DNA of 30,987 nucleotides, taken from a virus. The position numbers and the translations under genes were made by a program. The DNA is taken from IMG/VR virus record IMGVR_UViG_3300012984_000007, positions 1-30,987 of that record. One strand, given 5' to 3'. Below are positions 4,001-29,032 of this stretch, in pieces. Numbering within the stretch: the stretch's first letter is position 1; each line of letters starts with the position of its first letter. The notes beneath the pieces were generated by a model. That model was not told the DNA's origin and made no database searches. It saw nothing but the letters and a program-made list of their open reading frames with translations.

Positions 4001-5797
4001 ATGAGTGACGAAAAAAATAATATTGATAATACTACACAACCATCTACGATACCACAAAAAGATGTGTTTGAGAAGCCAAAGAGAAAGCCTAGGAACCCTG
4101 CTGTAGTAAAGGGTGGGCCTCCATTAAATCCTTATGGAAGACCTAAAGGATCTCAGAACCTTTCTACAAGAGTTAGAGAGGCCTTTCTTAATAGCTTAGG
4201 TGGTTCAGACTCTAAGAGTGCTGCTGCTCGTAACATAGATTATCTCAGTAAGTTCTTCAATAACTTCATTGAGGAAGCTATAAAGAACCCAGCTGGTTCT
4301 GCAGCTCGTACTCTGTTTCAACACATCACCCCAGAGCAACTCCTTAAAGAGATGGAGAGAGCACAAGAAGCTGAGTATCGACGCAACAATGAGTTCATGA
4401 ACTATCGACTCTTCATTCGTGGCTTTGACAAACAACAACAGGTTCTATTGAGCAAGTCAGATCGTATCGGTTTGATGTGTGGTCGCCGTGCAGGTAAGTC
4501 AAAGACCAATGAGTTGTTAGGTGTTCAGGCTGCTATCAAGGATAGTCATCAAAGAGCTTTGATCATTGGTCTATCGGTTGGCACCACAGAGAAGATCTAT
4601 CGAGATGGGATCAATAACCTTCTCACTGATCTTGGTATTGAGTTTGTTTATGATGGTAGCTCTTGTACCTTCAAACTTGACAACAACTCCATCATTCAGT
4701 TATCTGGTAACGCCAACAAAGCAGAGCAAGAGAAGTATCGAGGTTTACATTGGGACTTGATCATCGTTGATGAGGCTCAGTCACAAAGACACTTGACTGC
4801 CTTCATGGATGAGGTCATCAAGCCAATGTTGTTGGACACTAAGGGAAGACTTGTTCTTACCGGTTCTGGCCCACGTACTCGTGGTACCGCGTGGGAGAAG
4901 TTCTATGTGGAAGCACAACCAAGTGACCTACGATTGAACTGGAACATCTCTAACAACCCTCATATCGCAGACTATCAAAGTGCTCTAGCTGGGGTTCGTG
5001 AAAGAGAACATCTTGAAGAGACTGATGCTCTTTACTTGAGAGAGTACCTTGGTCAGATTGTGTATGATGACGATGCTCTTGTCTATCGAATGAAAGATCA
5101 GAACTACTTCACAGACGCAGACATCGTTGAGTGGCTTAAAGGTCAGTCTAGTGAGGACATTCGCTTCATGGCAGGTCTTGACTTCGGTATCAGAGACTCA
5201 GATGGTCTTGCTGTCATCATGTACTCTGAGAAGAGAAATGAGAAGTTCTTGGTTTATGAGTACAAGAAGTCTGGAACAGGCTTTGTTGAGTTGATGGAAG
5301 CTATCAAAGACGCCAAGAGATATATAGCTGAAGATCCCATCTTTAGTAGGATCTCACCTCATCATCGACAGTTCAACATCTTTGCTGATACTTCAGAAGC
5401 CAAGTGGTTGCCTGATGCTAGAACTCATCACGGCATCACTAACATCTTCCCTATTGCTAAGGAGTCTGTTGAGGTCTCTATTCAGACACTTAGAGATGAA
5501 GTTAGAAAGGAACAACTCAAGATCAGAAAGAATGGACCATTTGATGAAGAGTGTTTGAGGATCGTGTTCAAGAGAATCGATCTACCTAACCAACCTTCTA
5601 TCATCACTAGAGAGATCGATCACGACATCTATCACCCAGACATCCATGATGCCATTCGTTATGCTTTTCGTAACTATTGGTTGACACACAAGCAAGATCA
5701 CTTTGTACAACCTGAGAGTGAGAAGACACTAGACCAAACACATTTTGAGCGACAAGCTCAAAGATTAACTGAAAACTACAATGATTCATTGTTTTAA
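4001..5797 (+). CDS. terL: Terminase large subunit with DUF5681-like N-terminus, 598 aa
   Basis: This is the DNA-packaging motor ATPase and nuclease, acting at the portal vertex. Walker A is GRRAGKS at residues 161-167, and Walker B is DLIIVDEAQ with D257/E258. The coupling motif follows as LVLTGSG. The C-terminal nuclease (RNase H-like) shows LDFG at D394, FADT at D463 and HPDIHDAIRYA at D547/D550, the usual acidic triad. Unusually, residues ~25-60 carry GGPPLNPYGRPKGSQN, the signature I know from DUF5681 proteins, which elsewhere are small stand-alone proteins next to terminases. This suggests a small-subunit-like domain fused to the motor. There is no clear ribosome binding site before ATG 4001, so coupling to the upstream gene is likely. 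Confidence 0.95.
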   Translation: MSDEKNNIDNTTQPSTIPQKDVFEKPKRKPRNPAVVKGGPPLNPYGRPKGSQNLSTRVREAFLNSLGGSDSKSAAARNIDYLSKFFNNFIEEAIKNPAGSAARTLFQHITPEQLLKEMERAQEAEYRRNNEFMNYRLFIRGFDKQQQVLLSKSDRIGLMCGRRAGKSKTNELLGVQAAIKDSHQRALIIGLSVGTTEKIYRDGINNLLTDLGIEFVYDGSSCTFKLDNNSIIQLSGNANKAEQEKYRGLHWDLIIVDEAQSQRHLTAFMDEVIKPMLLDTKGRLVLTGSGPRTRGTAWEKFYVEAQPSDLRLNWNISNNPHIADYQSALAGVREREHLEETDALYLREYLGQIVYDDDALVYRMKDQNYFTDADIVEWLKGQSSEDIRFMAGLDFGIRDSDGLAVIMYSEKRNEKFLVYEYKKSGTGFVELMEAIKDAKRYIAEDPIFSRISPHHRQFNIFADTSEAKWLPDARTHHGITNIFPIAKESVEVSIQTLRDEVRKEQLKIRKNGPFDEECLRIVFKRIDLPNQPSIITREIDHDIYHPDIHDAIRYAFRNYWLTHKQDHFVQPESEKTLDQTHFERQAQRLTENYNDSLF

Positions 5798-6159: not shown

Positions 6160-8139
6160 ATGCCTATTAAAACAGACATGACAGAACAGCAAGTTAAGGC
6201 CGATATCCAATGGTTAGAAGGCCGCCTTGCTGCACGAGACATGAAGTACCAAAGATCATTGAACAGGTTCACCGCTAACGGTCAAAGACGCGAGACCATT
6301 CGTGAGCTCTACAACAACCCTCTAAGTTACTTCATGACAGGTGTAGACACCAACACTGGTATCTTACCTGCTATTAACATTGGCCGCTCCATGGCCTTGA
6401 CACTTCAATCTAAGCTTACTCAGACCAAAGGACGAATCTTCTTCAACCCAATCAAGGGTCTTTGGGAGACAACTAAGGTCGCACGAAACGCACAGATCTT
6501 CTTTGATACCTTCATTGACAGAGACCAAACTATGGACCACGTGTCTAAGGCAGTTCTAGCTGGTTTGGTGTTTGACATGGGAGTTATCTGGATCGATGAA
6601 GAGACTAAGTCAACTAAGGTTGTTCGTCCTTGGGAGTTCTTTGTTGACCCTGCTGAGTGGCACTACTCGGAGAAGATCAGTCGATGCTCTGTTCGTTTTG
6701 AACAGTATCCATTGGTTAACCTAAAAGATAAGATCCAAGACAATCAGATCCTGAAGTCCAGGTTAGAGCAAGACCTTCATGCTAAGTCTGCAGTTCGTTA
6801 TTACTGGGATCTAGTAAACAAGAAGCGTTGGTTGTTCGCAGATGGTAATGTTCTAGTTGAGGTAAAAGACATCGATTATGATGAGATCCCTTTTGCTATC
6901 TTCTTCTATAACAGCCCACTTAAGAGCTTCTTCAGCACCTCTGTTATGGACAACACCACTCCTAATCAACGACAGATTGATAAGATCCTTCGTCGTTTGA
7001 ATGATGCTGTCACCTTCTCTCCAGCTAACACTATCTTTGTGCCATCTACTTCAACAACTTCTAAAGGACTTGAACTTCCAAAGGAGATGCAGAACAGGAT
7101 TGGTGAGATCGTTCCTATTGATATGACATTGGGTCAAGTCGTAGTTTCTACACCAGCTCCTATCAACGAGATGTACGTCGAGTTGATCAAGTTCTTTGAG
7201 ACTGAATCCTTCAATCAAGAAGGAGTCTCTCAACTCTCTGCTCAATCTAAGAAGCCAACCGGCATCACCTCTGGTGTTGCACTTGACACACTACAAGATG
7301 TTGAGTCTGAGCGCTTCCAAGCGCAGGTAGATAACCTCATCAAGTTCATGCAAGACATCTACACTAAGATGATCAAGATCTTTCCAAAGAATGATCCAAT
7401 CCTTCCTAAGAGAGTTAATCGAGCCACACTAAAATGGAGCTCCATCGTTGATCAATGGGATCAGATTAGTCTGTCATCTAGCATGGCATCAACTCTTTCT
7501 AAAGATCCAGAGGTTAAGCTTCAACAACTAGAAAAGTTGCTTGCTCAAGGTTTGATCAATGCTAATGCTGTTGCTGAGTTGATGCAGTTACCTGACCTTG
7601 AGGGAGCTTACTCTGCAGCTACTGCTTCGTATGATGATTGCCAAAAGATTATTGAGAGAGTCATCGAGAAAGACAACTACAACTTCAACCCCGTTGTTAA
7701 CCTTCAGATGTTGCTTTATGAATCTGTCTCAATGTACCTTCAACTAGACTCTGTTGATGAGGACCCAGCCATTCTAACTAAGGTCTCTAAGTTGATCGAG
7801 TTGGTCACAGCTAAGATCAACGACAAGAACAACATCCAGAACCCTGCTCAACCAGCACCTGGACCTTCTAAAGATGTTAACGTTCAGGATCAAGCTCTTA
7901 ATGGAGCCCAGATCACTGGTGTTATTGAGGTTCTTAAGTCTGTCTCAGATGGTTCTATTACCTATCAGCAAGCCATTCCTCTACTCTCTGCCGCTATGCC
8001 TAATCTTCCTATTCAACAGATTGAAGACATGGTAGGAGCTCCACATCAAACACCTGGACAAGCTCCAGTTAATCCTGCACCAACTGCTGCTCTTGGAGCA
8101 GCAGGACAACAAGTAACAGCTCCTGCTACAGCGAGCTAA
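6160..8139 (+). CDS. Portal (head-tail connector) protein, 659 aa
   Basis: Its length, position directly after TerL and before the scaffold and capsid, and sequence style identify it as the podovirus-type portal. This dodecameric ring is the DNA channel and tail attachment site. Residues ~1-60 (WLEGRLAARDMKYQRSLNRF ... ETIRELYNNP) are helical. The core follows with GILPAINIGRSMALTLQSKL, then a typical stem/wing pattern. The region near residue 350 (FNQEGVSQLSAQSKKPTGITSGVA) matches the conserved S-A-x-x-x-P-x-G-x-x-S/T-G-x-A portal motif. The last ~110 residues are Pro/Gln/Ala-rich and probably a barrel or flexible tail. AAGGAA precedes the ATG. Confidence 0.9.
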   Translation: MPIKTDMTEQQVKADIQWLEGRLAARDMKYQRSLNRFTANGQRRETIRELYNNPLSYFMTGVDTNTGILPAINIGRSMALTLQSKLTQTKGRIFFNPIKGLWETTKVARNAQIFFDTFIDRDQTMDHVSKAVLAGLVFDMGVIWIDEETKSTKVVRPWEFFVDPAEWHYSEKISRCSVRFEQYPLVNLKDKIQDNQILKSRLEQDLHAKSAVRYYWDLVNKKRWLFADGNVLVEVKDIDYDEIPFAIFFYNSPLKSFFSTSVMDNTTPNQRQIDKILRRLNDAVTFSPANTIFVPSTSTTSKGLELPKEMQNRIGEIVPIDMTLGQVVVSTPAPINEMYVELIKFFETESFNQEGVSQLSAQSKKPTGITSGVALDTLQDVESERFQAQVDNLIKFMQDIYTKMIKIFPKNDPILPKRVNRATLKWSSIVDQWDQISLSSSMASTLSKDPEVKLQQLEKLLAQGLINANAVAELMQLPDLEGAYSAATASYDDCQKIIERVIEKDNYNFNPVVNLQMLLYESVSMYLQLDSVDEDPAILTKVSKLIELVTAKINDKNNIQNPAQPAPGPSKDVNVQDQALNGAQITGVIEVLKSVSDGSITYQQAIPLLSAAMPNLPIQQIEDMVGAPHQTPGQAPVNPAPTAALGAAGQQVTAPATAS

Positions 8140-10342: not shown

Positions 10343-11731
10343 ATGCCTTACACTGCCAGCCAGATCATCAGAGAGGCTAGATCTCTTTCAGACTTCCAGA
10401 ACGCTGAGACGATCACCTATGAAGATGAGCTCCAACTTATCAATGAAGCTTACCGAGACATCTACAACAGGTACACTGAGTCTGATGGCGATTACTGGGT
10501 CAATGAGGTCATCATCGACCTTGGTTCACAATACCTCGATCCAAACGCTCAAAACGCCTACTTGATTCCGCTCCCTAGTGATTTCTATAAGATCAGATGG
10601 GTTAGCTACAAGAACAACACCATGTGGTCTCCAGTGAACCGATTCTCGACAGCTGACAGAGATGATTGGCCTGGTGTTCCAATGTATCGAATCAAGAATG
10701 ATGACCTATGGATCATCTCTCCACTTGGTTCCATTCCTCAGATCAAGATGGGTTACTACATCCCACCTCAAGTTGTCACAGCACCACAAGACAGCATTCA
10801 GTTTCAACCTGACCTTCCTGCTTACAACGTACCTAACATCAAGAGTGTGTTCTATATCGCCGATGACATCTTGTTGTTTGCCTATGGTTTTATCCTTAAA
10901 GTAGATAATGGAACAGCTAACAACCAAACTATTGATCTCTACACTCACACTAACCCAATCGACAACGTCGTTTATTACAGAGGTTATGCTTACTTCAAAG
11001 ACACTGTGACAAGTGGCATCTATCGACACACAACTGACTTGTCAACTCCCTTTGTTACACCTACTTTGATCTTGAGCAACGTTAACAACTTTGTTATTCA
11101 AAACAATAAGATCATCTACTCAACGGCGGCTATAACTCAGAAGTCAAATCTAGATGGATCTACTCCAGTTCTAGTATCTTCTTCTCCAACCATCAGTTAC
11201 CAATATGCTGAAGCTAAGAACACAGTTCCAGTTTACATCGATGCTAGTTCTTCAACAATCGTTGTTGGTGGAGTTCTATCTAATGTTACTAACGCAGTTA
11301 GATTGACCACTTATCTTGGTCAAGTCTTTTGGCTTGACTCTAATCAAGATTGGTATCAAGCAACTTATGATCCAGTTACTCATGTACTCTCTACTCCTGT
11401 TCTTCGTCAAGAAGGAGTCCTTAAGGTTGGAAACAACGTTGGATCTAACTTCTACCCGGTGGTTGGTGAAGGAGTGTTTGCTAATGACCTCACTGAAGAC
11501 ACCATCTTCGATTATCCCTCCAACGAGGTCAATGAGATCATGACTTACTCATCTGCTTTTGGCTACTCTAGAAAGATCAATGACCTACCTAAGATGCAGT
11601 CTCTTACTTCTGAGATTGTTAACTTGTGGGATAGATTTTGGTCAGTTAATCGCCGAGATGAGTATCAGTTTCAACGAATCAACAACTACTACAAAGACGA
11701 TACTGGTGGTTATGGTTGGGGAGCTTGGTAA
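10343..11731 (+). CDS. Head-tail adaptor with inserted propeller-like domain, 462 aa
   Basis: Residues 1-165 (ASQIIREARSLSDFQNAETI, then YEDELQLINEAYRDIYNRY, ending KMGYYIPPQV) have the pattern of podovirus adaptor proteins that dock under the portal. Residues ~386-462 (PSNEVNEIMTYSSAFGYSRK ... WSVNRRDEYQFQRINNYY) resemble the end of the same family. Between them lie ~220 residues of short beta-strand repeats (LFAYGFILKVD, VVYYRGYAYFKD, VIQNNKIIYS, GQVFWLDSNQDWY), typical of a beta-propeller. Usual adaptors are about 150-250 residues, so this is an insertion. It could decorate the neck or contact the host. The leader carries CTAACTA and AAGGA. The next gene starts at the GTG overlapping its last base region. 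Confidence 0.75.
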   Translation: MPYTASQIIREARSLSDFQNAETITYEDELQLINEAYRDIYNRYTESDGDYWVNEVIIDLGSQYLDPNAQNAYLIPLPSDFYKIRWVSYKNNTMWSPVNRFSTADRDDWPGVPMYRIKNDDLWIISPLGSIPQIKMGYYIPPQVVTAPQDSIQFQPDLPAYNVPNIKSVFYIADDILLFAYGFILKVDNGTANNQTIDLYTHTNPIDNVVYYRGYAYFKDTVTSGIYRHTTDLSTPFVTPTLILSNVNNFVIQNNKIIYSTAAITQKSNLDGSTPVLVSSSPTISYQYAEAKNTVPVYIDASSSTIVVGGVLSNVTNAVRLTTYLGQVFWLDSNQDWYQATYDPVTHVLSTPVLRQEGVLKVGNNVGSNFYPVVGEGVFANDLTEDTIFDYPSNEVNEIMTYSSAFGYSRKINDLPKMQSLTSEIVNLWDRFWSVNRRDEYQFQRINNYYKDDTGGYGWGAW

Positions 11732-14700
11732 GTGCCTAACACACCAGATGCACTAGAGATCAATCTTAAGGCCTCACTCAACGTTGACACAGTTAATGAA
11801 GATGTGTTCTCATTTGGAGATAACACTGCTCCATCTAATGACAACACAGGCATTGAGAGACTAGGTGGTGTTAAGAATCTTTGGGAGACCGAGGTTCTAA
11901 ACCCAACTAATAGCTATGCCTTTGAGACACAAAATGGTCAAACCATGCTCATTGAGCCCACCTCTGACCCTAACATCAACAATCTAGTTGTAGATGGAAA
12001 CTCTGTTGCAAACATCTCTGCTTGGGGTATAGAAAGAAGAGTTAGAATCACCAACGTCGATGACCCTATGGTTTGTGTAGGAGACACCTACATAACATGT
12101 CAGTTGAACGTTAACGTTGTCACAATCTCTGAGTTTGACTTTGACAACAATCTTCTTTCTTCTAGAACAGTTACCTTTACAAACTTACTGCCTTATGTCA
12201 GTTTTATCACAAGCATCAACTTCGTAAGATACCAATCTCCTCATTATGCAGACTCTCAAGAGTTCTTACTCAGATTAGGTGGACAAACTATCATCCTTAA
12301 GGAGTCAACTCCTAACCAACCTATTGTCCCAACCTTCGCTTCTTCTACCATGCTTGGAACAGGAAATGCTATCAACGCTTCTGTTGTTTACAATGGCTTC
12401 TTAGTTGTTGCCGGAGCTAACGGAAGAGTCGCTTCTTTTGATGGTTTTAACTGGAAGAACTATGATGGTTCTGGTTCAGGAACTGGACCTTTCAATGGTG
12501 GTACTGTAGTTAACAACCAAACTATTCAATGTATGATCGTTTGGAATGGCTTCTTAGTCGTTGCAGGAGCTGGTGGTTTACTAGGTTCTTGGGACGGTTC
12601 TGCTTGGAAGAACTATGATGCTTCAGGCATCGGAACTGGACCTTCAGATAATGCAACCTTGATTGGTGCTGTCACCATCTTTGCTATGACCATTTGGTCT
12701 GGTTTCTTAATCGTAGGTGGTGGTTCTGGACGAATGGGATCCATGTCCAATGTCTCCACCAAGTTTGTTTATACGACAACTCAAACGACATTGATGGCTG
12801 GTCGAAACATCCCAGCTCCAACCTCAAATGCTACACTAATCGGATCAAACACGATCACAGCACTTGCTGTTTACACAGCAGTTAATACACCATCTTCACC
12901 AGGCGTATTGATGGTAGCAGGTGGTGGTGGTCTTGTTGCTTCTTGGGATGGTGGTTGGGTCAACAGCTCAGGTACATTATCTCCAGCTACCTCGGCATCA
13001 TCTTGGTCACTTAGAACTCAAGGTGTTACTTCCAGCAACCAAGCAGGTCTATGGGCTTATGGTAATGGTATCTGGCTCTCTGCTATTCAATCTAGCTTAA
13101 ACAACCCAGAGTTCTTAACAAGTACTGATGGTCAGACTTGGACAGGTCGACCCTTAAGTGTTGGTGTTACTTTCCAGTGTATCACTTTCGGTGGTGGTTT
13201 GTTTGTCCTTGCTGGTAACAAGTCCACAGCAGATAATCAAATGGTCTATACCTCACCAGATGGTATCACATGGACCCTTAGAAACACAACTACTACTCCA
13301 ACGTCTAGTGGTTGGGGTTCTGTTGGATATGGTAATGGTCTTTATGTTTTAGGTGCAAGAGATAACACACAAACTACCATCTTAACTTCTCCAGATGCCA
13401 TCACTTGGACCAGCAGATCTACTCCAACTTCTCTTAACTTAGGTTGGTCTGATATCACTTATGGTGCAGGTCTTTATGTTGTCTTAACAAGAGCCGCAGG
13501 TTCTGGTGCAACTAACAACGTTATCACCTCACCAGACGGCATCACATGGACAGCTCGTACCACACCTGTAGCTGCAGGTGGTACTGGTAACGGATGGACT
13601 CACGTTACCTTTGGTAATGGTATCTTTGTTGCTACCTCACTATCTGGATCATCAACTGCTGTTGTTATGACCTCTACTGACGGTATCAACTGGACTGCTA
13701 GAACAGGTATCTCTTCAACTGGTGGTTTAGGAAGACCTGATTATGTCAATGGAATCTGGTGTTCATTTTTCCAAAATGCTACATCAACTAACGCAGTCAT
13801 CACCTCACCAGATGGTATCACTTGGACCACTCAAACTACGCCAGCTCCAGGTGCAGGTGGTTGGACAGGTTTAACAGCAGGAGGAACTGCTGATGGACCA
13901 GGTAGATTCATCGTTGGTTCTAACGGTCAAGGTACTCAGAACTCAATCATTGTCTCTGTTCCATCTACACCTTTCCCAATCTTTAACAACGCAACAGTCA
14001 CCTCTACTTTTACCATCAATGCTATGTACGCAGATAGCTCAATCATCGTGTTCTGTGCAAGCTCTGGTTTACTAGGTAACTACAGCTCTGGTGCCTTCCA
14101 CAACTATAACTCAGGTCTAGCTTTCACCAACAACCAAACTGCTGTTGGAATAAGTGACATCTTATCTATCACTAAGTTCGGAACTACTTGGGTTATAGGC
14201 TCTGGTTCAACAGGTCGATTAGCCTCTTGGGATGGAACAAACTGGAAGAACTATGATGCTACAGGAACAGGTACAGGTGTCTCCAACAATGGTACCATTG
14301 TTGGAGCTTCTAGCATAACAACTCTATCAGTCTACAACTCTCAACTTTGGGCAGGATCAGCTGGTGGAACTGCTAACAACATGTCAAGCTCTGGCTCTTT
14401 TGTTCCACCTTACATCATCCCAGCTGGTGGTTCTGTTGTTTATCTTCTTGGTGGACAATCCATCTTAGGATACCCTTACACCTATCGTTATGAGAACGGA
14501 CTCTACATCCTAGCACTAGTTAACAATGGACTCAACACAGGTTACATCATTGATGAGACCTTGCATCAAGCTACGCCTCTTAAGGTTAGCTATGCTATGC
14601 CACAAATCTCTAATGGAAAGACGCGTCACATCCTCATTGAGACCCCTCGCTTTGATGGTGCTAACTACTACACGGTCTCAACCGTTGGTTACACTGACTT

Positions 14701-16585
14701 CACAACTTTCACAGCAACTCAACAATACCCAACTACAGGGATCACCAATGCCAATGCTATCAAGCAAAGTCACATTGGGTTCAACTACAGTGATTCAACT
14801 CTAACTAGAGGGTCTTCATCAATCACTGAGTTCTTGGTACCTCAGACTCAATCAACTCCAACAAGCTTCTACAGCTTCTTCCAAAGCAACACAAACACCA
14901 CTGTTCTTGGTTTTGGTAAGTTAACTAACAGCTTTGGAGTTGTACCAGATGTTCCATTTGAGATCAGAACCATCTGGACTGGTACTGACTTGGCTGGTGC
15001 TAACCAAGCTACCCTTAGCGTTGCGGTACTTGATGGTAACCCAACAGATGCAATGGGTACTCTTTTGACAAATGTCGGTACATTTGATGACTCTTACACT
15101 CCTCAAGTTAACAGTGGTAGAAGAACTCTTTATAAAGACTCCACTGATGGTTCTTGGTACATCGTTGTTCTATCTAGAACCCCATCAGCACCAATCCAAC
15201 AAGAGAGCACGTATCTTTACAAGATCAACACCATTAGCTTGTTGAACCTTTACAATAGCCAAACTCGCCAAGTAGGAATCGGAAGCTCAGACTGGAATGG
15301 TAGAATGTTATTCACTAGCTCTGCAACTCCAGTAACAGGAACCTCAGAAGCTGTTACTCTTTTCCAAGGTGCCTTCTCAAACGGTATTGATTCTGGTGTC
15401 AAGATCATCGACATCCCAAGTGCAACTTCTGGTAACATCAGTGTTCTAGGTGCACGAGTTCCAGGCTTCAGAAACTCTATCAACAGTCAGTTCTTCGTTA
15501 ATACTTATGTGTCTCCTCCTGCTGTTGCACCGGCCACCATTAACGTTTCTAACCCAGCTTACTTGTTCAGCACTCTAAATGACGGTTCTAAGTTTGTTGT
15601 CTCTAGTCAACAAGGAACCTTCTACACTCAACAGACAAGAGTTCCAATCGCCATTGGAGGGGTTTACTTTCTAGACATCGTTAACTTGACCAATCAAACT
15701 TGGTTGCTTGAGAATGGTTATGAAGGTTACTTGGTAGGTAACAGTTTCATCGGAAGTTACCTAGGCTTCCAGTTGCTAGGTCAAACTTACCTCTTTGATG
15801 GTGAGTGGATCTACATAACTCAACAAGACACCTCAGGGTTCTTTAGTATCCCAACCATCATTGCTCCAGCTTCTGGAATGCAGTACATCGCCTCCGCTGA
15901 AACCTTGGTTTACTTTAGATCTGGTTTTGACAACAGCTTGTACGTCTTCAATGGTGAAAGAAGCCTTCAAAAGAACCAACGATTCACAGCTATGGAACCC
16001 ATCATTGACGGTCAATACTCTGTCAGAGATAAGACTTTAGTTCTTCAAACTGAGAACACCTTGATCTTTGTTAGAGATAACTCAACAGAGAATGGTATCA
16101 TCACCACAAAGAATGACAAGAAGGCAACTCAATCTGGTCTTAGACTTTACAACACAAGTAAAGGACTTATCGTTGGTAATAACACTGGACAGTGGCAGTA
16201 CACCCTTGATTCTCTAGATGATACCTCAACAGTTGTTCCATTGAAGTACAGCACCGCTTACTACGGTTTGACCACTAACAAGAAGAGTTATCTCAAGAGC
16301 TACATCTTGACCTTGTACAGCTCAACTCAACAAGCTCTAACACTTAAGGTCACTCACAATGCCTTTGACCAAGATCATCCTTACGAACAGACCGCATATT
16401 ATAAGGTCTCTCCGTCTGACTATAATGGTCAAGGATACACAAGAGTTAGGCTTCAACCTAAGAGCATGAACAACCTAGCTAACCAACTCACCATTGAGTG
16501 TGATGATGAAGTTCTTCTCTTGAACCTCACAGCTATCTATGAAGAGAAAGAGAACGCAGTCATCAAACCTAAACTAAGCAGATAA
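11732..16585 (+). CDS. Giant tail hub/nozzle protein with nested beta-propellers, 1617 aa
   Basis: It starts with GTG immediately after the adaptor stop, with GGGGAG at 11718-11723 as ribosome binding site. The ends of the protein resemble podovirus nozzle or packaged-DNA stabilisation proteins of the P22 gp10 / T7 gp12 kind. These are the N-terminus GIERLGGVKNLWETEVLNP and the C-terminus LDSLDDTSTVVPLKYSTAYY ... TRVRLQPKSMNNLANQLTIE. Known members are 470-800 residues, so this one is about twice as long. The excess is residues ~200-880. Blades of the type SWDGxxWKNYDxxGxGTGP occur near residues 234, 286, 336, 404, 784 and 832. Six Asp-box repeats (TSPDGITWT) at ~465-700 interrupt them. It forms the tail tip and may bind surface glycans. 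Confidence 0.8.
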   Translation: MPNTPDALEINLKASLNVDTVNEDVFSFGDNTAPSNDNTGIERLGGVKNLWETEVLNPTNSYAFETQNGQTMLIEPTSDPNINNLVVDGNSVANISAWGIERRVRITNVDDPMVCVGDTYITCQLNVNVVTISEFDFDNNLLSSRTVTFTNLLPYVSFITSINFVRYQSPHYADSQEFLLRLGGQTIILKESTPNQPIVPTFASSTMLGTGNAINASVVYNGFLVVAGANGRVASFDGFNWKNYDGSGSGTGPFNGGTVVNNQTIQCMIVWNGFLVVAGAGGLLGSWDGSAWKNYDASGIGTGPSDNATLIGAVTIFAMTIWSGFLIVGGGSGRMGSMSNVSTKFVYTTTQTTLMAGRNIPAPTSNATLIGSNTITALAVYTAVNTPSSPGVLMVAGGGGLVASWDGGWVNSSGTLSPATSASSWSLRTQGVTSSNQAGLWAYGNGIWLSAIQSSLNNPEFLTSTDGQTWTGRPLSVGVTFQCITFGGGLFVLAGNKSTADNQMVYTSPDGITWTLRNTTTTPTSSGWGSVGYGNGLYVLGARDNTQTTILTSPDAITWTSRSTPTSLNLGWSDITYGAGLYVVLTRAAGSGATNNVITSPDGITWTARTTPVAAGGTGNGWTHVTFGNGIFVATSLSGSSTAVVMTSTDGINWTARTGISSTGGLGRPDYVNGIWCSFFQNATSTNAVITSPDGITWTTQTTPAPGAGGWTGLTAGGTADGPGRFIVGSNGQGTQNSIIVSVPSTPFPIFNNATVTSTFTINAMYADSSIIVFCASSGLLGNYSSGAFHNYNSGLAFTNNQTAVGISDILSITKFGTTWVIGSGSTGRLASWDGTNWKNYDATGTGTGVSNNGTIVGASSITTLSVYNSQLWAGSAGGTANNMSSSGSFVPPYIIPAGGSVVYLLGGQSILGYPYTYRYENGLYILALVNNGLNTGYIIDETLHQATPLKVSYAMPQISNGKTRHILIETPRFDGANYYTVSTVGYTDFTTFTATQQYPTTGITNANAIKQSHIGFNYSDSTLTRGSSSITEFLVPQTQSTPTSFYSFFQSNTNTTVLGFGKLTNSFGVVPDVPFEIRTIWTGTDLAGANQATLSVAVLDGNPTDAMGTLLTNVGTFDDSYTPQVNSGRRTLYKDSTDGSWYIVVLSRTPSAPIQQESTYLYKINTISLLNLYNSQTRQVGIGSSDWNGRMLFTSSATPVTGTSEAVTLFQGAFSNGIDSGVKIIDIPSATSGNISVLGARVPGFRNSINSQFFVNTYVSPPAVAPATINVSNPAYLFSTLNDGSKFVVSSQQGTFYTQQTRVPIAIGGVYFLDIVNLTNQTWLLENGYEGYLVGNSFIGSYLGFQLLGQTYLFDGEWIYITQQDTSGFFSIPTIIAPASGMQYIASAETLVYFRSGFDNSLYVFNGERSLQKNQRFTAMEPIIDGQYSVRDKTLVLQTENTLIFVRDNSTENGIITTKNDKKATQSGLRLYNTSKGLIVGNNTGQWQYTLDSLDDTSTVVPLKYSTAYYGLTTNKKSYLKSYILTLYSSTQQALTLKVTHNAFDQDHPYEQTAYYKVSPSDYNGQGYTRVRLQPKSMNNLANQLTIECDDEVLLLNLTAIYEEKENAVIKPKLSR
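13121..13840 (+). repeat. Six coding Asp-box repeats inside the nozzle gene
   Basis: A coding motif, T-S-[PT]-D-[GA]-x-[TN]-W-T, recurs near 13124, 13252, 13386, 13527, 13671 and 13803, spaced 43-48 codons. It is preserved partly at DNA level (CACCAGATGGTATCAC variants). This is the BNR/Asp-box pattern of sialidase-like six-bladed propellers. The repeats diverge at synonymous positions, so they are old protein repeats rather than recent DNA duplications. Confidence 0.85.
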
Positions 16586-16598
16586 GGAAACTACAACT

Positions 16599-17672
16599 AT
16601 GGCAGGATTACTAGATAACATCGGACAGTTCATCTCAGGTTCTCACACTAATGAAGGTGTTGAAGCTGAGAAGGATCTTGGAAAGACTGGAGAACAGGTC
16701 GTTCAACAGGGCCAAGGTCTCATTGGACAAGGTACCAATCAACTTCAGAAACAAACTAACACAGCTAACAAACTCGCTGGCTCAGAGAATGAAGCCTATC
16801 AGGAGTCTGTTGGTGCAAACGCTGGTGATACCCTTAAGAAAGGAATCGCTGCATCAGAACCCATCGCTCAACAAGCTGCAGAAGAACAAGCTTCAGGTGT
16901 AGCTAAGACTCAACTAGAAGCTTCAAGGACTGCTGGGTTAAACAAAGGTGAAGCTGCACTTCATGCTGGTCAAGCTGGTGGAAATGCTTACACCTCTACT
17001 TATGCTCCAGCTCTTCAGAATGAACAGAGTCAATACAACACCCTAGCACTTCAAAGAGGACAACAGGCACTTCAAGAACAAGGTCTTGGATTGACTGGTG
17101 CCGGTAAGATCGCTGAGACTGGTGTGTCTGAACTTAACCCAGGTCTTGGTGCACAATCAACTGCTGCTCAAGCTCAGATTGATCAAGGCAATAGAGAACA
17201 AGCTGCTGGAGGTGGTCTATTAGGTGGTGCTATTTCAGGCATCTCAAGTCTACTCTCTGACGTAAGACTCAAGACCAACATCACTCCATCTGGTTCAGTT
17301 GAAGATCTCATGACAAAGTTCAAGTCTCCTAAGACAGTTTCTAATGTCGATGTACTTCTAGCTAAGTACAAAGATAGTTCAGACCCAATCAAGAAGCTTG
17401 CAGCTAATGTCACCCCAGTTGATTTCAACTATAAACCTGGGATTGGTGAAGATCCTAACAAACAAAGAGTTGGAGTTCTTGCACAAGATCTTGAGAAGAC
17501 CGATGCTAAGGACAATGTTGTTGTAGCACCTGATGGAACTAAGACCATCGATGTTCCACAACAGACTGGAACCAACACCAACTGGATCGTTCAACTTGCA
17601 CAGAAATCTGTTGAACAAGAAAGCATGATCAAGGACCTACAGGCTCAACTCTCGAAACTTCAAGGGAAGTAA
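16599..17672 (+). CDS. Ejection-type protein with C-terminal S74 autochaperone domain, 357 aa
   Basis: Residues 1-215 are Gln/Ala/Gly-rich and helical (GNAYTSTYAPALQNEQSQYN), like small podovirus internal or ejection proteins. From residue 220 the sequence SDVRLKTNI opens an S74 intramolecular chaperone domain, followed by DFNYKPG, RVGVLAQDLEKTD and NWIVQLAQKSVEQESMIKDL (the usual C-terminal helix). In S74 proteins, cleavage falls between Ser and Asp, helped by a Lys five residues on. Here S220, D221 and K225 fit exactly, so self-release of ~137 residues is predicted. S74 domains normally end trimeric fibres or spikes, and this N-terminus does not look like a fibre. Ribosome binding site AAGGAA. 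Confidence 0.8.
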   Translation: MAGLLDNIGQFISGSHTNEGVEAEKDLGKTGEQVVQQGQGLIGQGTNQLQKQTNTANKLAGSENEAYQESVGANAGDTLKKGIAASEPIAQQAAEEQASGVAKTQLEASRTAGLNKGEAALHAGQAGGNAYTSTYAPALQNEQSQYNTLALQRGQQALQEQGLGLTGAGKIAETGVSELNPGLGAQSTAAQAQIDQGNREQAAGGGLLGGAISGISSLLSDVRLKTNITPSGSVEDLMTKFKSPKTVSNVDVLLAKYKDSSDPIKKLAANVTPVDFNYKPGIGEDPNKQRVGVLAQDLEKTDAKDNVVVAPDGTKTIDVPQQTGTNTNWIVQLAQKSVEQESMIKDLQAQLSKLQGK

Positions 17673-27934: not shown

Positions 27935-29032
27935 TTACAATCGAGTCCAATGGTAACCTCCAACCTCTTTGTTGTTATCAATAGCATATCTCATCGTGTT
28001 GCTCTTGAATGAAATGGAGACTGTAGGATCCAAGTTTAAGCTGTCGTAAGCTATGACCATGGACTTGAAGATCTCACCTGTTTCGACGCATTGAACAGGT
28101 TTAGAGTTTCCTAAGTTATTTGGGTTTGGACCTCTAAGTTTGATCTCTCTATTCATCGTAGGTTGTAGATCTTTCTTCTTAGCATTCGTAGCCTTTCTCG
28201 TAGCAGAGATCTTAGACCTTGTCTCAGGAGATAACCTTCTATTTCTGTTGGCTTCACTGATCTTCTCTCTCATCTCAGGTGTCCAAACTTGTTTAGGTCT
28301 TGGCTTAGAGACCTTCTGTTGAGACATCAACAACTCACCTCTAATCTTTCGTTCTTTTTTAACTGACTCTTCTCGTTCAGCGAAGGCATCATCTAGAACA
28401 TGATTAGATGCAGGAGCTTTGATATCTTTGTTGATCCAATGATCTTTCTTAGCTCTAGCTTCTTCTTCAGTTAAGGCCCAGAAGATGTCCTCATAAGGAC
28501 GTTTGTTTAAGTAGATCCCTCTCTTAGTTCTATCATTAACATTGAACGAGTCATCAAAGGTGACTTGAAGTTCATCAGAGTCTAGAGAAACTCCAAACAA
28601 CTTTCTACTCTTGTCTAGAGTCTTGATCAATCTAGTGATCTTAGTTCCTATGATGTTGTCAATGTCTCTTGGAAATCTCTTAACAAAGTTATGGCCACTC
28701 GTCTTCATGATATAACCTGAAGAGTAGATCCTTCCATATTTCTCTTCTATATCATCAATATGAGAGAAGACCTCCCAAGTGACGGTCTCCATGTACACGA
28801 TCCTTGGGTACTCAAAGTCTTCTAACTCAGCTAGCTCTTCATAAGTTAAGGTCTTCTTCTTAAGTTCATGAAGATCCTTTCTTTTCAACCAATCTATCTT
28901 ATCTTGTCTTGTCACCAATAGACTATGAAAGTAGAACTCATACTCAGGAGATGGATGCCTTCGTCTTTCTGGTTCAGGTCCATAGTCATCATCTAAGATG
29001 TCAATGAGGCGGAGTTCAAAGTCTGAGATCAT
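27935..29032 (-). CDS. NUMOD3 / IENR1-like DNA-binding protein, 365 aa
   Basis: Residues ~249-282 (VWTPEMREKISEANRNRRLS, then PETRSKISATRKA) are two NUMOD3-type repeats, a DNA-binding motif known from homing endonucleases. Residues ~311-365 (PVQCVETGEIFKSMVIAYDS ... GGYHWTRL) match a NUMOD1/IENR1-like winged module. The N-terminal ~240 residues are charged, helical and unrecognised, with no HNH, GIY-YIG or LAGLIDADG nuclease signature. Hence it is probably not an active homing endonuclease but a sequence-specific DNA-binding protein, or one with an unfamiliar catalytic domain. It is the third gene of the first leftward operon. GGAG and TAACTATA precede the ATG. Confidence 0.75.
   Translation of the reverse strand: MISDFELRLIDILDDDYGPEPERRRHPSPEYEFYFHSLLVTRQDKIDWLKRKDLHELKKKTLTYEELAELEDFEYPRIVYMETVTWEVFSHIDDIEEKYGRIYSSGYIMKTSGHNFVKRFPRDIDNIIGTKITRLIKTLDKSRKLFGVSLDSDELQVTFDDSFNVNDRTKRGIYLNKRPYEDIFWALTEEEARAKKDHWINKDIKAPASNHVLDDAFAEREESVKKERKIRGELLMSQQKVSKPRPKQVWTPEMREKISEANRNRRLSPETRSKISATRKATNAKKKDLQPTMNREIKLRGPNPNNLGNSKPVQCVETGEIFKSMVIAYDSLNLDPTVSISFKSNTMRYAIDNNKEVGGYHWTRL

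Follow-up and report, generated by a model that had tools for sequence, protein, structure and literature searches.

How two families of beta-propeller repeats share one polypeptide is the question raised by a 1617-residue protein encoded in an uncultured virus record (IMG/VR IMGVR_UViG_3300012984_000007, 30,987 bases; "the window" denotes this whole stretch of DNA). The gene is one uninterrupted frame at positions 11732-16585 of the + strand, with a GTG start adjoining the stop codon of an upstream adaptor gene. A first-pass annotation, made from the letters alone, had read the product as a tail nozzle in which a sialidase-like propeller of Asp-box repeats interrupts a propeller of SWDG-type blades. 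We found the repeats to be present, one ring to be nested in the other, the corresponding sites to be empty or doubly filled in relatives, and a homologue with an empty site to have a nozzle fold. Our reading, to which we assign a probability of roughly 75%, is that this nozzle holds a chain of insertions (an SWDG ring in a nozzle hairpin and an Asp-box ring in the SWDG ring) that would act as exchangeable cassettes for contact with the bacterial envelope.

SWDG-type blade ends were located at residues 235, 286, 404, and 832, with degenerate versions near 336 (SMSN) and 784 (SSGAFHNYN), in agreement with the positions first proposed (near 234, 286, 336, 404, 784, and 832). The six Asp-box repeats claimed to lie between the SWDG groups were also found, at residues 464, 508, 553, 600, 648, and 692, with measured spacings of 44, 45, 47, 48, and 44 residues (i.e., 44-48). 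They are of the short type, SxDxxxW, and strands flank each box in the structural model described below. The pattern S-x-[DN]-[GA]-x-[TN]-W was observed 8 times compared to a mean of 0.01 in shuffled copies of the protein, and [SG][FW]DGxxWKNY occurred 3 times versus none in the shuffled copies. A blade hidden Markov model (HMM), built from host (SWDG) and Asp-box repeats of several relatives, read SSSS-AAAAAAA-SSS along the protein. The SWDG array breaks after SWDGGWVNSS and resumes at NNATVT, the same junction residues that had been described earlier. A seventh blade of the Asp-box ring, at residues ~705-746, is degenerate; it is closed by SASSWSLRTQ, the strand just before blade 1 of that ring. 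The resulting layout is given here; relatives, cited by L numbers, are >20 nozzle genes from scans of viral contigs.

11732..16585 (+): nozzle gene, 1617 aa, GTG start (open reading frame reading; nozzle fold shown on homologue L039)
11732..12331 (+): nozzle N-terminal part, residues 1-200, the nozzle's own propeller blades up to the insertion point (alignment to empty-site L039)
12344..12490 (+): host (SWDG) propeller blade 1, residues 205-253 (HMM, model)
12491..12646 (+): host propeller blade 2, residues 254-305 (HMM, model)
12647..12826 (+): host propeller blade 3, degenerate SWDG, residues 306-365 (HMM, model)
12827..12985 (+): host propeller blade 4, residues 366-418; the inner ring enters after its last strand (HMM, model)
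12992..13969 (+): nested seven-bladed Asp-box propeller, residues 421-746 (model, structural alignment; absent from L007)
13121..13141 (+): short Asp-box 1, STDGQTW, residue 464 (motif)
13253..13273 (+): short Asp-box 2, SPDGITW, residue 508 (motif)
13388..13408 (+): short Asp-box 3, SPDAITW, residue 553 (motif)
13529..13549 (+): short Asp-box 4, SPDGITW, residue 600 (motif)
13673..13693 (+): short Asp-box 5, STDGINW, residue 648 (motif)
13805..13825 (+): short Asp-box 6, SPDGITW, residue 692 (motif)
13985..14128 (+): host propeller blade 5, residues 752-799 (HMM, model)
14129..14284 (+): host propeller blade 6, residues 800-851 (HMM, model)
14285..14416 (+): host propeller blade 7, residues 852-895, its end modeled at low confidence (HMM, model)
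14417..16582 (+): nozzle C-terminal part, the rest of the nozzle, residues 896-1617 (alignment to L039)

We examined the nesting with an AlphaFold2 model of residues 195-909 (seven input sequences; mean predicted local distance difference test score [pLDDT] 71, predicted template modeling score [pTM] 0.64) and VIA structural alignment against the PDB. Model residues 227-552 (protein 421-746) alone matched complete seven-bladed rings, including 2z2o_D (Z 29.5, root-mean-square deviation [rmsd] 2.5, 282/295) and the seven-bladed design 7big_A (Z 24.9, 274/286). Single seven-bladed WD40 rings aligned across model residues 5-715, as for 3odt_B (Z 25.7, rmsd 2.5, 268/296, model residues 12 to 715). 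For a ring of 296 residues to span this range, the flanks must form one ring from which the insert is skipped, and the two sets of matches together indicate that both rings close, one within the other. The model thus supports a seven-bladed SWDG propeller made of residues 205-418 plus 752-895 that closes across the insert and, inside it, a second seven-bladed ring at residues 421-746, composed of six short Asp-boxes and a velcro blade. The structure prediction that the first-pass annotation had proposed as a check therefore favored its nesting claim, at moderate model confidence, whereas its six-bladed Asp-box ring gave way to seven blades by HMM, strand list, and structural match. One continuous solenoid, or two sequential and non-nested propellers, would be in keeping with blade repeats that run along the chain, with how common tandem propellers are, and with the multi-propeller proteins that head the Foldseek matches; this arrangement is nevertheless very improbable, as single rings align across the insert while the insert aligns alone, and the relatives described next carry contiguous SWDG blades (L007) or a host ring split in a manner incompatible with sequential order (L013).

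Comparative genomics gave stronger support still for nesting than did the structure model. Insertion lengths were read from an alignment of 18 full-length nozzles, with L039 (951 aligned residues) as the reference, and all of the propeller-bearing insertions fell at one place, L039 position 221. The insert length there was 0 in L039 (956 aa) and L027; 307 and 322 residues in L024 and L023, which possess an Asp-box ring without an SWDG ring; and 362 residues in L007, which has uninterrupted SWDG blades and no Asp-box. Six host blades of L007 were recognized by HMM, and the seventh, which is degenerate, by reading the sequence. Inserts of 650-702 residues, comprising the SWDG ring and one nested ring, were present in L001, L004, L008, L012, L031, and the window protein; those of L002 and L021 were 873-881 residues, and those of L013 and L018 (1011-1036 residues) contain two Asp-box inserts in the SWDG ring, as does the contig behind L020 and L005. 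By HMM, the host blades of L013 are split 4+1+2 around its two inserts. Three L025-type nozzles in the alignment differ by a 34-residue stretch at the insertion site. Given its intact SWDG propeller, L007 represents, by sequence comparison, the naturally unfilled state of the inner-ring site, and L039, with no insert, that of the outer-ring site. L017 shares 66% identity with L007 across 387 aligned N-terminal residues, a region that takes in the N-terminus and the first four blades, yet it bears an Asp-box insert. The proposed insertion into a host propeller thus stood, but the first-pass annotation had not recognized the SWDG propeller as being, in its turn, inserted in the nozzle. A chimeric assembly of two genes might be entertained for a contig from an uncultured virus record, yet its probability is negligible: the frame is uninterrupted, and the idea was refuted by the same architecture in the independent contigs L001, L012, L004, and L008.

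The double-insert loci (L013 7980-13739, L018 7956-13853, and L020/L005) place their two Asp-box propellers after blades 4 and 5 of one SWDG propeller, the second entry point, in L013, L018, and L005, being a sequence reading. In L004, L008, L013, L017, L020/L005, L031, and L002, the ring separates strand 3 of host blade 4 from strand 4; in these proteins strand 4 (for example, TKxIYTxxS) comes after the insert, as can be compared with the uninterrupted L007 sequence SISG-TVATKSIYTTVS. In the window protein, L001, and L012, the insert comes only after a stretch resembling strand 4 (GGWVNSSGT), which places the entry point behind that stretch. In L046 (6853-10815), an Asp-box ring of seven repeats occupies another site of the nozzle, flanked by GMKILANQ and LQVRIDEI. 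These differing entry points indicate that insertion happened at several loops.

The protein that received these rings is a T7/SU10/P22-type podophage nozzle. The model of L039 (pLDDT 79.6, pTM 0.77) returned only podophage nozzles or muzzles in its first 30 VIA rows, including those of T7 (7ey7_s, Z 18.1, 424 aligned), SU10 (7z4b, Z 17.1), phiCrAss001 (7qol, Z 17.1), and P22 (8u10_1, Z 13.2, 390/471), and both flanks of the insert in the window protein can be aligned with L039. The gene order is that of such phages (terminase at 4001, portal at 6160, adaptor at 10343, and nozzle at 11732), and the portal and adaptor match SU10 Pfam families, the portal below its cut-off. T7 and SU10 nozzles have a seven-bladed propeller at their core (PMC6702177; PMC9509320). 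In T7 gp12, the best structural match, a blade-3 loop extends to the nozzle tip, but that tip is a small beta-barrel rather than propellers (PMC6702177). SU10 gp17 (PDB 7z47 and 7z4b) shares the overall fold of L039, and its nozzle propeller bears inserted domains, but with neither an inserted propeller nor a second nesting (PMC9509320); a profile comparison with the SU10 nozzle detected no sequence similarity. The phiCrAss001 muzzle gp44 is a T7-like seven-bladed propeller whose length varies through insertions into blade 3 and between that blade and blade 2, but the inserted parts are Ig-like and crass-fold domains (PMC10172136). Position 221 of L039 lies between strands 212-217 and 223-227, in the third blade-like unit by strand counting in the model. 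Since the nozzle core is itself propeller-based, and since domains leave the T7, SU10, and crAss001 propellers at blade 3 or between blades 2 and 3, the window protein probably is, on this model, a propeller within a propeller within a propeller (three levels), and a distal position of the rings is likely.

According to the mechanism that we propose, a seven-bladed SWDG propeller would have been inserted into a hairpin of the podophage tail nozzle, and a seven-bladed Asp-box propeller would in turn have entered SWDG blade 4 behind its last strand. Propeller-in-propeller insertion would be workable because the N- and C-termini of a velcro-closed ring lie side by side, so that such a ring would fit in a loop and leave the recipient ring unbroken. 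From their position, the rings would most likely sit near the distal tail end, numbering six of each should the nozzle be hexameric like those of T7 and SU10, and would add a non-catalytic contact surface for envelope glycans or proteins.

The inner ring is unlikely to have sialidase activity. Sialidase propellers are six-bladed. Residues 421-746 contain a single Glu (E460) and no RIP motif, homologous inserts contain 0-3 Glu, and the HMM, strand list, and structural match agree on seven blades; the ring thus differs from GH33 sialidases, and the cleavage function first suggested for it was not borne out. More broadly, a sialidase or other glycoside hydrolase that cleaves surface glycans could be imagined because Asp-boxes are common in such enzymes (PMC2716378), but the same features, and the fact that Asp-boxes are structural hairpins and not active sites, make a hydrolase most improbable. 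A survey of Asp-box propellers describes closed rings in which the short Asp-box SxDxxxW recurs in the hairpin that joins strand 3 to strand 4, as here, and distinguishes four organizational types, none of which, in the portion available, is an Asp-box propeller within another propeller (PMC2716378). The inner ring resembles viral M1PQ47 in BFVD (TM 0.85 of target, 34% identity), and similar Asp-box rings are present in phage fibre proteins; in the stand-alone viral examples (BFVD M1PQ47 and A0A6J5SXG5), in contrast, the ring forms a domain or protein of its own and is not nested.

Inner-ring similarity did not track nozzle similarity, which suggests from sequence comparisons that inner rings are exchangeable cassettes varying independently of the nozzle. 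Between L008 and L005, identity is 63% in the core versus 18-23% in the inserts, whereas L012 and L005 share 40% in the core and 65% in the insert. Across 11 phages, the rank correlation of identities was 0.00 between core and insert (permutation p 0.50) and 0.32 between core and host propeller (p 0.08). The main rival is a purely structural role, in which the rings, comparable to the Ig-like domains in the SU10 nozzle, would extend or reinforce the nozzle and bind no receptor. In the SU10 and crAss001 nozzles, too, blade 3 or its vicinity has received inserted domains (PMC9509320; PMC10172136), those of SU10 rearrange on ejection (PMC9509320), and charged residues are scarce in several of the inserts. 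We consider this role the less probable one because the inner-ring sequence diverges more than core and host propeller, without following nozzle similarity, a pattern more in keeping with surface-exposed adhesin cassettes than with structural parts, and because phage fibre proteins provide close structural matches. The reading that asks for least is one of exchangeable cassettes for surface contact, and the inserted rings probably touch the bacterial surface.

Several points weigh against our interpretation. The 195-909 model is of only moderate confidence and does not fix the mutual orientation of the two rings, the end of host blade 7 is below pLDDT 50, and ring closure was taken from alignment ranges, not from coordinates. 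The window protein shares only about 35-40% identity with the relatives whose sites are empty, and low-identity repeat alignments blur the exchange test, making it suggestive and not proof. The third level rests on strand counting in the L039 model, and any binding, including that of glycans by the inner ring, is a predicted function.

The nozzle fold, Asp-box propellers, and domain insertion into nozzle propellers were already known. We found no description of a propeller inside a propeller inside a nozzle, with empty and doubly filled homologues, in the literature searched, which covered few subscription papers. Propellers are usually strung in sequence. Interleaving of propellers within one chain is also a feature of DDB1-type proteins. 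In the present family, natural relatives whose corresponding sites hold no ring, one ring, or two rings make ring-into-ring insertion traceable stepwise. A more general Russian-doll mode of tail-tip diversification, with velcro-closed propellers entering propeller loops to as many as three levels, two rings side by side, and receptor-binding rings exchanged while the core is unchanged, has in our estimate an even chance of being correct. The findings point to a hidden class of candidate receptor-binding domains within proteins annotated as nozzle or hypothetical. Ring insertion also explains nozzle lengths of 906 to 2455 residues in one family; its empty nozzles are 906-956 aa, longer than the 470-800 residues that had been assumed as usual.

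Other blade arrays were noted among the relatives and in further phages. Nozzles L022 (7977-15344, 2455 aa) and L040 (4801-11157, 2118 aa) have about 18-19 SWDG-type blade matches, and L022 has a WD40-like stretch early in the array (Pfam ~1e-5, below cut-off). Tandem 132-nt (44-residue) blade repeats with 82-90% DNA identity at L020 9182-9615 and L005 20-565 suggest recent blade amplification, as judged from the sequences; other L005 copies are more diverged. On contigs of 91-112 kb, SWDG repeats occur in the C-terminal part of two long non-nozzle proteins of other phages, L064 (7525-11172), which starts with Ig-like repeats, and L068 (7513-10323), which has a Cys-rich stretch. The gene after the L009 nozzle (11101-13146) contains many copies of a TGLQQNAVNLQQ-like repeat.

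Searches of PHROG and Pfam assigned neither a nozzle nor a BNR family to the window protein, and such families may not cover this clade; a PDB sequence search with it yielded nothing relevant. The phage record collection contained no terminase, empty-nozzle, or host-propeller relative, only Asp-box matches in unrelated large phages. A genome-contig scan returned a single fragment, in an Acidobacteria metagenome-assembled genome, which is too little to name the host. The neighboring gene directly upstream of the nozzle is as follows.

10343..11731 (+): adaptor gene (SU10_adaptor, PF24175; Pfam)

This adaptor comprises 462 aa versus 250 codons in SU10 gp11, and its extra ~200 residues, in the middle of the protein, resemble small propeller blades on reading the sequence; it may therefore carry an inserted propeller too. 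Elsewhere in the window, a gene at positions 27935-29032 (- strand) may be homing-endonuclease-like, going by a weak match to NUMOD3 (E 0.003, below cut-off). Directly 3' of the nozzle, positions 16599-17672 encode a 357-aa protein with a C-terminal match to Peptidase_S74 (endosialidase chaperone; E 1.9e-6).
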